Positions 22,669 to 25,742 of a DNA stretch of 36,135 nt are shown piece after piece (position 1 is the stretch's first letter; each line of letters begins with the position of its first letter). The DNA lies in the NCBI GenBank assembly GCA_020722945.1, contig DYJV01000022.1, positions 1 to 36,135 on the forward strand, in the 5' to 3' direction. The position numbers and the translations under genes were made by a program. Source of the stretch: Candidatus Methylomirabilis sp. Lineage in GTDB: Bacteria > DYJV01. The notes under the pieces were generated by a model. That model was not told the origin of the DNA and made no database searches. It saw nothing but the letters and a program-made list of their open reading frames with translations.

Positions 22669-24804
22669 TTACAGAATTATACGACCTATCTGATAGGCAA
22701 TTAAAGTTATGAAATATGCAAGAACAGTAAGGCCAAAAAACTGGTAAAAAGCATATTTCCAAGAACCTGTTTCTTTTTTAGTTATTGCAAATGTTGCTAT
22801 ACATGGTGCAGAGATCAATCCCCACAGAAGTATACAAAAACCTATTAATGGGTTGTAATCACTCTTTATTTTTTCAATTAAACTTTCAGACTCTTCATCA
22901 GCTTCTCCAACTGAATTAATTATACCCAATTGTGCTACAAAAACCTCTTTGGCTGCTAAAGCTCCTAAAATTGCAGTAGATATCTTCCAATCAAAACCTA
23001 AAGGTTTAAAAATAGGTTCAAGTGTCTTACCTATCTTACCCATATAACTTTTTTCTACCTCTTCTGCACTTCTCAAATTCTCTATCTCAGATATTTTGCT
23101 CTCTTTCTCCTCATCTTTCAACAACTGATTGGATTCAACCTTACTAATCAAGGCTTCATAATCTTGGGAGTAGTTAGTGACCTTTGGAAAACTACTCAAA
23201 AACCACAACAATATTGATACAGCAAGAATAATTGTCCCAGCTTTTTTTAGATAAAGATAACCTTTCTCCCATACATAGGTTAAAAGAGCTCTGAATGTAG
23301 GAATCCTATATGGTGGTAGCTCCATTACAAATGGGGCACTTTCACCTTTGAAAATTGAGAGTTTAAGAACTTTGGCAACAACAATAGCCAAGATTACACC
23401 AAAAATATTAATACCCCATAAAATTGCACCATGATAATTTTCAGGGAAGAAAGCCTGAATAATGAGTATATAAATTGGAAGTCTTGCACCACAGCTCATC
23501 AAAGGTAAAACTAAAATTGTCAAAAATCTCTCTTTTTTTGATTCAAGAGTTCTTGTTGCCATTATCCCTGGGACACTACAACCAAAACCTATAAGCATTG
23601 GGATAAAACTTTTACCATGCAACCCTATATGATACATAAGTTTATCAACTATAAATGCAGCACGAGCCATATATCCACTATATTCAAGTATACCAAGTGC
23701 AAGAAACAGTATAAGAATATTTGGAAGAAATATTACAACAGAACCAACTCCACCAATCACCCCATCAATTAGAAGTGATTTAAAAATTGTATCTTCAGGC
23801 AATATAGAGCCAACTTTCTCCGACAAAAATCCAAAAAATGCATCTATCCAATCCATTGGGTAAGAACCTATCGTAAATGTAAGCCAGAAAACAATATAGA
23901 GGAGAATTAGGAATATAGGAATCCCAACTAATCTATTTGTCAAAACCATATCTATTTTGTCAGAAATTTCATGTTTTTTCTCAATAGTTGCTTTTAGACA
24001 TTGGGTAGAAACTCCCGAGATAAATCCATACCTCTTCTCTGCTACAATTGTTGCTACATCATCATTATAAAAATTCTCTATCAATCTTCTCTCTTCATTT
24101 AACGCCTTAAAAAGAGCGGAATTTTCAGGGAAAAACTTTTTTATATAATTTATCTCTTCAGAGTCATTCTCGAGAAGTTTTAAACTTAACCATTCAATAT
24201 TTTTTTCTCTCTCCACATCTGACTGCACAAGCATATTACTCAATCTTGTGATAGCACTACTTATCTCTTTACCATATTCAACTCTTTTAAAATCTGTTTT
24301 CAATCCATTAATAGAAACATCCACTACTTTATTTTTTAACTCAACAATCCCTTCCCCTTTATGACCAACTGTTTTTACAATAGGAACTCCAAGTAATTTT
24401 GAGAAACATTCATACGAAATATCAATCCCTTTTTTCTCTGCTTCATCACTCATATTGAAAACAAGAATCAAAGGAATCTTCAACTCCATTATCTGAACAG
24501 CGAGATAAAGGTTCCTTTCAAGATTACCTGAATCAAGTATATCAACCACAACATCAGGTTTTTCATTGATAATGAAATTTCTTGCTATAATCTCCTCAGG
24601 CGAATAAGCTGTCAAAGAGTATGTCCCAGGTAGGTCAAATACTTTTACATTTCTACCTTGATGCTCAAAAGAACCCTCTCTTTTTTCAATTGTAACACCC
24701 GGATAATTACCTACATGCTGCCTTAATCCTGTCAAACTGTTAAAAATTGTGCTTTTACCGGTATTTGGATTCCCCATGAGTGCAATATTAATCTCTTTCT
24801 TCAT
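22669..24804 (-). CDS. feoB: Ferrous iron transporter FeoB
   Basis: FeoB imports Fe(II) across the inner membrane, gated by its N-terminal G domain. The 711-residue protein shows G1 GNPNTGKST (about residue 11), G3 DLPGTYS and G4 NMSD, a helical GDI-like region to about 270, and then a polytopic membrane part. There the two Gate motifs are visible around IGFGCSVPGIMATRTL and LAAKEVFVAQLG. Conserved Cys is present in GCSVPG. Length is typical. It follows feoA by 54 bases and is expected to be controlled by the DtxR-type regulator at the head of the operon. Confidence 0.97.
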   Translation of the reverse strand: MKKEINIALMGNPNTGKSTIFNSLTGLRQHVGNYPGVTIEKREGSFEHQGRNVKVFDLPGTYSLTAYSPEEIIARNFIINEKPDVVVDILDSGNLERNLYLAVQIMELKIPLILVFNMSDEAEKKGIDISYECFSKLLGVPIVKTVGHKGEGIVELKNKVVDVSINGLKTDFKRVEYGKEISSAITRLSNMLVQSDVEREKNIEWLSLKLLENDSEEINYIKKFFPENSALFKALNEERRLIENFYNDDVATIVAEKRYGFISGVSTQCLKATIEKKHEISDKIDMVLTNRLVGIPIFLILLYIVFWLTFTIGSYPMDWIDAFFGFLSEKVGSILPEDTIFKSLLIDGVIGGVGSVVIFLPNILILFLALGILEYSGYMARAAFIVDKLMYHIGLHGKSFIPMLIGFGCSVPGIMATRTLESKKERFLTILVLPLMSCGARLPIYILIIQAFFPENYHGAILWGINIFGVILAIVVAKVLKLSIFKGESAPFVMELPPYRIPTFRALLTYVWEKGYLYLKKAGTIILAVSILLWFLSSFPKVTNYSQDYEALISKVESNQLLKDEEKESKISEIENLRSAEEVEKSYMGKIGKTLEPIFKPLGFDWKISTAILGALAAKEVFVAQLGIINSVGEADEESESLIEKIKSDYNPLIGFCILLWGLISAPCIATFAITKKETGSWKYAFYQFFGLTVLAYFITLIAYQIGRIIL

Positions 24805-24858: not shown

Positions 24859-25086
24859 TTAAATTTTTTCTACAAATATCTTTGCAGCCATTCCAAAACC
24901 TAACCCTATCTTGCTATTATCTTTACTGATAATTATACCACTGTTATTTTTCCCACTATTTACAATTTCACATACAGAACCAACCATCAAACCTAAACTA
25001 TTTAATCTCTGGTTCAACAACTTCCCCCCATCAATTCTGCTTATCCTGACCTTTTCACCATTACCTATAAGAAATATAGGGAGCAT
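24859..25086 (-). CDS. feoA: FeoA, stand-alone SH3-like protein
   Basis: The 75-residue protein has the FeoA pattern: an N-terminal strand, GGKLLNQRLNSLGLMVGSVCEIV as the helix-and-loop core, and a final IGLGFGMAAKIFVEKI. FeoA is a cytosolic partner required for FeoB activity in several species. It starts 2 bases after the regulator gene's stop, with GAAGG upstream inside that gene. A second, related FeoA domain is fused to the regulator, so the operon encodes two FeoA domains. Confidence 0.93.
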   Translation of the reverse strand: MLPIFLIGNGEKVRISRIDGGKLLNQRLNSLGLMVGSVCEIVNSGKNNSGIIISKDNSKIGLGFGMAAKIFVEKI

Positions 25087-25088
25087 AA

Positions 25089-25742
25089 TTACACCTTCTC
25101 AATAATAATAGAATCTGCTTCACTTTTTCTAAGTGATAAATGGGAATTTTTGAGTAAAAAATCTATAGGATCACCCAAAGGAGCAACTTTTTCAACAGTA
25201 ATAATCTCCCCCGGAACTATCCCCATACTTAGAAATCTCTGTTTCATGGAACTATTAGCAGTTATCTCCTTTATTACTCCTCTCTCCTCTTTTAACAAAT
25301 TTGATAATTTCATTTTTTTTCCCCCTTTATTTTTAAATTCATTCCACTTTTCATAACAACCTTCACACTCAGTCTCTATAAAATTTATAAAAGCAAAAAG
25401 TTTTTCAAAAGTTGAGTTACTGATATAGTGCTCAATATTACACGCATCAATTTTGCTCACTTCATCTTCAACTCCAAGGACATTTGTAAAAAAATTATGA
25501 AGCATTTTATGTTTGTTGTATATTTTTTGAGCAATTTCAGCTCCTTGGGGAGTCATATCTATATATCCATACCTTTCATATTCAATAAGATTTTTTTGAG
25601 CGAGAGTTTTTAATGCATTGTTAACCGAGGAGACCTTATAACCGAGTAATTTCATTATATCTTTAACTCTGACAACCTTCTTTTCTAAACTTATTATCCA
25701 TATAGCTTCAAGATAATCTTCTATACTGTGAGTTAATTCCAT
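25089..25742 (-). CDS. DtxR-type metal regulator fused to an FeoA domain
   Basis: 217 residues from the ATG at 25742, which has GGAGG 5 bases upstream; the longer frame from 25772 is rejected. Residues 1-63 are a winged helix (SIEDYLEAIWII...), and 64-140 are the dimerisation domain. Metal ligands Asp9, Glu12, His78, Cys101, Glu104 and His105 follow the DtxR/IdeR pattern (Cys rather than the Glu of MntR), favouring iron sensing. A CEGC pair lies at 126-129. From Met144 the sequence is a complete FeoA domain (MKLSNLLKEERG...). An A8 tract precedes Met144 (see findings). It heads the feo operon and probably represses it when iron is plentiful. Confidence 0.9.
   Translation of the reverse strand: MELTHSIEDYLEAIWIISLEKKVVRVKDIMKLLGYKVSSVNNALKTLAQKNLIEYERYGYIDMTPQGAEIAQKIYNKHKMLHNFFTNVLGVEDEVSKIDACNIEHYISNSTFEKLFAFINFIETECEGCYEKWNEFKNKGGKKMKLSNLLKEERGVIKEITANSSMKQRFLSMGIVPGEIITVEKVAPLGDPIDFLLKNSHLSLRKSEADSIIIEKV

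Follow-up and report, generated by a model that had tools for sequence, protein, structure and literature searches.

A single gene at the head of a feo operon in Candidatus Methylomirabilis sp. probably gives rise to two proteins, a DtxR/MntR-FeoA fusion and, by internal initiation at the domain joint, a free FeoA. The gene is located in a stretch of 36,135 nucleotides, which was analysed as a whole and is referred to as the window. The notable feature of the joint is a Shine–Dalgarno sequence in front of an in-frame ATG, rather than the run of eight A residues (A8) found there. Ribosomes starting at the ATG at 25742 would produce a repressor that senses metal and ends in a FeoA domain, and ribosomes entering at GGGGG-A7-ATG (25325-25311) would produce a free FeoA of 74 residues. 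Judging from the operon, this FeoA would serve the FeoA-FeoB transporter encoded next; the A8 tract would mainly form the A-rich spacer of the internal ribosome-binding site. We infer both the use of the nested start and the supply of free FeoA as its purpose. The features of the region are:

22669-24804, minus strand: feoB, 711 amino acids (TIGR00437, 625.7 bits)
24859-25086, minus strand: separate feoA, 75 amino acids (Pfam FeoA, 50.6 bits)
25089-25742, minus strand: dtxR/mntR-feoA fusion gene, 217 amino acids (Pfam matches, open reading frame, and own ribosome-binding site)
25742, minus strand: ATG start of the fusion gene, with the ribosome-binding site TTTTGGAGGCTATA-ATG
Residues 2-59 of the fusion: DtxR helix-turn-helix domain (Pfam PF01325, 45 bits, above cut-off)
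Residues 64-128: metal-binding/dimerisation domain (PF02742, 61.4 bits, above cut-off)
Residues 144-216: FeoA domain (PF04023, 70.2 bits, above cut-off), complete (model positions 1-74 of 74)
25321-25328, minus strand: internal Shine–Dalgarno sequence AAAGGGGG (anti-Shine–Dalgarno duplex −10.7 kcal/mol), ending 7 nt before the ATG
25313-25320, minus strand: A8 tract, consisting of the 7-nt A-rich spacer and the A of the ATG
25089-25313, minus strand: nested feoA open reading frame, Met144 to stop, 74 amino acids
25763-25776, no strand assigned: ATAGT-N4-ACTAT palindrome in the promoter, a candidate operator of the regulator

The minus-strand reading frame of the fusion runs from the ATG at 25742 to 25089 (217 codons) and stays open through the domain joint. 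The protein belongs to the DtxR/MntR family, as both the N-terminal helix-turn-helix and the metal-binding/dimerisation domain were matched, and the best PDB match was MntR (1on1). By its scores it is not classed as MntR proper, since both equivalog models stayed below their cut-offs (NF003025, 85.5 vs. 138 bits; NF008273, 77.8 vs. 153 bits). Its mixed ligand set (D9, C101, E104, H105) is of the same Asp/Cys/Glu/His kind as that of PgMntR from Porphyromonas gingivalis, which also has the same domain order but carries two FeoA domains instead of one (PMC4805248). The available part of the PgMntR report mentions no internal start (PMC4805248), and searches of an open-access library on DtxR proteins with FeoA domains showed no report of one. 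In a comparison of sequence with structures, the matched DtxR/IdeR chains aligned mainly with the N-terminal part of the fusion. The interpretation of the C-terminal part as the ordinary SH3 domain of DtxR was rejected, because this part matches free FeoA proteins from their first residue: Met144 corresponds to position 1 of the Pfam FeoA model and aligns to residue 1 of the free FeoA structures 2k5i, 2k5f, and 7r7b.

The linker of GGGGG, eight A, and TG, with a frame running on into FeoA, had been described in the first-pass annotation and was found again in the minus-strand reading frame at 25325-25311, the sole match in the window (GGGGG 25325-25321, A8 25320-25313, ATG 25313-25311). The perfect Shine–Dalgarno sequence reported 7 bases before the internal ATG is likewise real. 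Its pairing with the 16S rRNA tail (−10.7 kcal/mol) is stronger than that of the gene's own start (−9.3), the separate feoA (−6.6), and feoB (−8.2), and it exceeds that of all 222 further internal in-frame ATGs examined in 48 genes of the genome (best −9.3). Synonymous shuffling did not single out the window site (p = 0.69), because its residues already force the signal.

To what extent such a signal is shared was assessed with 101 distinct DtxR-FeoA fusions collected by a genome scan and genome searches, many of them from metagenome assemblies. The position of the FeoA anchor is defined by alignment and thus approximate. ATGs at the joint (n = 43) had a mean pairing energy of −8.7 kcal/mol, and 67% of them were at or below −8 kcal/mol, a cut-off for strong sites that was chosen after the first table had been seen; for the remaining in-frame ATGs in these genes (n = 517), the mean was −3.1 kcal/mol, with 7% at or below the cut-off (Fisher p = 3e-20). 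As in all of these comparative tests, related genes were counted as independent and the p-value is too small. Mean upstream pairing was strongest at codons −7 to −4 from the FeoA anchor. When the seven upstream codons were shuffled synonymously, the mean pairing weakened to −7.1 compared with the observed −8.7 kcal/mol, with individual p-values of about 0.02-0.06 for many carriers. Twenty further fusions gave a similar picture, with strong sites at 4/4 joint ATGs and 12/88 others (p = 7e-4), and additionally contained two strong GTG starts in the phylum of genome G022. Judged by these predicted sites, related genes from many bacterial phyla carry the same nested signal.

The protein sequence of the joint fits this pattern. 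In many fusions FeoA is immediately preceded by Gly-Gly and then Met, encoded as GGAGG...ATG, for example CAGCAAGGAGGTCGGAAAGCGATG in L040; the L180-type joint reads AAGGAGGTCAGAAAGCGATG. A test of the glycine codons in genes preselected for a strong Shine–Dalgarno sequence is circular, and it was therefore repeated with genes chosen by protein sequence only (Gly-Gly, then Met). The first Gly codon was GGA or GGG in 21 of 22 cases, compared with 176 of 334 other Gly codons (p = 3e-5), a bias that points to selection at the nucleotide level. The arrangement resembles Cas11b, which is also a C-terminal part made separately from an internal in-frame Met, in that case within cas8b (PMC11899642). 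As in Cas11-type genes, the in-frame start and its ribosome-binding site lie at a domain boundary and are kept in relatives, L031 and L038 excepted. Cas11b, however, belongs to a CRISPR system and is backed by protein evidence (PMC11899642), whereas the separate product proposed here from sequence would be derived from a transcription factor and act as the partner of a transporter.

The nested start was found only in fusions with feoA or feoB directly downstream on the same strand (35 of 35 carriers, compared with 43 of the 66 fusions lacking it; Fisher p = 1.2e-5, with related genes counted as independent). In 34 carriers feoB was found, and the remaining one has feoA at a contig end; 23 of the 66 fusions without nested start are not directly upstream of either gene. 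After correction for relatedness the association was not significant, with only six independent contrasts on well-supported branches. The gene set itself is familiar from operons with two feoA genes followed by feoB, which nested FeoA, the next feoA, and feoB would reproduce; unlike in those operons, the first feoA here is inside the regulator gene. The separate feoA adjoining the fusion and the many fusions upstream of feoB without nested start count against the use of the internal site.

It is rather unlikely, though worth serious consideration, that an overlapping, translationally coupled pair of dtxR and feoA genes gave rise to the fusion, and that the Shine–Dalgarno sequence and ATG are leftovers without function. 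Two-gene relatives that overlap and possess the same kind of Shine–Dalgarno sequence are present (L008/L036, GTG, −10.8 kcal/mol; L136/L137, ATG, −12.1/−12.5 kcal/mol), and of the two sister genes L097 and L101, the first is fused and the second split, the difference being a stop codon at the joint. Fused and overlapping states therefore interchange, which in principle supports the first-pass annotation. The tree requires at least five changes between fused and separate states, and the nested start is patchy, with a minimum of 17 changes on the best tree, six of them on well-supported branches. The window gene is placed in a supported group with L031 and L038, of which it alone carries the nested start; L031 and L038, its two closest relatives, have no in-frame start with a strong Shine–Dalgarno sequence at the joint. 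In one clade of 20 rows (support 95), however, 15 keep the strong site, the glycine codons of the Shine–Dalgarno sequence are held at GGA/GGG, and carriers occur only upstream of feoA/feoB, all of which argues against mere leftovers. Some of the nested sites could nevertheless be left over from a former arrangement of two genes.

Internal initiation is also to be preferred to slippage on the A8 tract, by which RNA polymerase or ribosome would turn part of the product into a 143-residue regulator, with an A count that may vary between cells. We consider this improbable in the window. The calculation behind it is correct: with seven A, the codons would read GGG GGA AAA AAA TGA, giving a stop after residue 143 and a 74-residue FeoA from Met144, close to the 75 residues of its neighbour. 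In the second dtxR-feoA copy of the assembly, which also has A8 at the joint, the frame reached after loss of one A stops at once as well (TAG; TGA in the window). The shortened regulator might be inactive, by analogy to PgMntR, in which removal of the last FeoA domain abolished Mn and DNA binding (PMC4805248). Exact A8 runs, however, number 693 in the 2.5-Mb genome and eight in the window, and the sense strands of 44.8 kb of coding sequence contain eight A8 and one A9; on its own, the A8 is thus ordinary in this genome. According to published work, A runs in bacterial genes are most often selected against from a length of nine onwards, and slippage may be suppressed in some AT-rich genomes (PMC1088944). 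In dnaX of Thermus thermophilus, an A9 run inside the gene likewise allows a full-length and a shorter product by transcriptional slippage (PMC1088944). Compared with dnaX-type sites, where an A/T run of about nine or more is kept in relatives, the window has only A8 in an A8-rich genome.

The near relatives L038, L002/L033, L151, and L039 all carry the fusion, and their joints contain no A8; the fusion in this lineage is therefore independent of the tract. The claim that a single A decides between fusion and two genes is not supported, and the A8 was rejected as the main reading, being frequent and missing from the joint of near relatives. Against its view, the first-pass annotation had set an invariant fusion in all relatives with an interrupted A tract and no internal start signal; these relatives are indeed fused without A8, but three of the four possess an internal start, located at GTG or ATG in L002, L151, and L039, where no A tract is present. 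The suggestion that both products could coexist stands with respect to initiation at Met144, which is favoured by the strength of the site and the comparative evidence, and is weakened with respect to A8 slippage. Most simply, the A-rich stretch is the spacer between the Shine–Dalgarno sequence and the ATG.

A better candidate for slippage is a Thermodesulfobacteria-like clade, in which the fusion gene, oriented divergently to feoAB, lacks the nested start. Exactly A9 is located at the joint in 7 of its 10 members (L118-L123 and L125; genomes G060-G064, G086, and G095, about 50% GC), in two different phases. A9 is rare in those genomes (23-47 per genome), Lys codons inside the A9 tracts are AAA in 14/14 cases compared with 59/172 elsewhere, and the lineages share only 34-43% codon identity at identical residues. 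The A9 is thus a possible site of transcriptional slippage, more dnaX-like than the A8 of the window, although its occurrence at the same joint lends some plausibility to the latter. In several of them (L047, L050, L053, and L057), the frame reached after loss of one A stops within a few codons. A run of A10 was observed in the linker of L130.

The second copy belongs to another dtxR-feoA/feoA/feoB operon of the same assembly (C168, L031) and is fused as well, with 54% identity:

L031 3608-4282, minus strand: second dtxR-feoA copy, 224 amino acids; the joint keeps AGAAGGAG and has no in-frame start codon

This copy could belong to another organism because the assembly has 5.8% contamination. 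The ATAGT-N4-ACTAT palindrome is found before it, too (L031 4307-4320, a candidate operator), and exact matches of the extended motif ATAGTN4ACTATAATAT occur in the genome only there and in front of the window gene. Judged from the second copy and the nearest relatives, both fused, the fusion is old; a recent accident or error was rejected on the same grounds. Homopolymers are error-prone on some sequencing platforms, yet a sequencing or assembly error hiding a true A7 and two separate genes is very improbable, as the 224-residue copy and the near relatives L038, L002, L151, and L039 are all fused. Two other fusions were observed: L032 (2021-2587, minus strand) in the same genome combines DtxR dimerisation and FeoA domains, and no helix-turn-helix was recognised in the upstream frames; L034 (2301-2984, minus strand) encodes a Fur-FeoA fusion directly upstream of feoB. 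The latter was rejected as an independent case of a nested start, since the Shine–Dalgarno sequence of its Met154 is weak (−2.9 kcal/mol).

A more far-reaching and tentative proposal is that dtxR-feoA is a widespread device for making two proteins from one gene. At the head of feo operons, an internal start would provide free FeoA and couple the levels of regulator and transporter partner; where gene and feoAB are oriented divergently, one clade without the start would use A9 slippage to obtain a regulator devoid of FeoA. A gene annotated as a single fusion would conceal an internally made free FeoA. If made, this protein ties the stoichiometry of iron sensor and Feo transporter together via one mRNA and explains the common Gly-Gly...Met joint, whose codons spell GGAGG...ATG, and the exchange of a single internal start codon would allow the role of FeoA to be tested. 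The gene also illustrates how regulator and transporter genes join and separate in a way that allows the second product to be retained.
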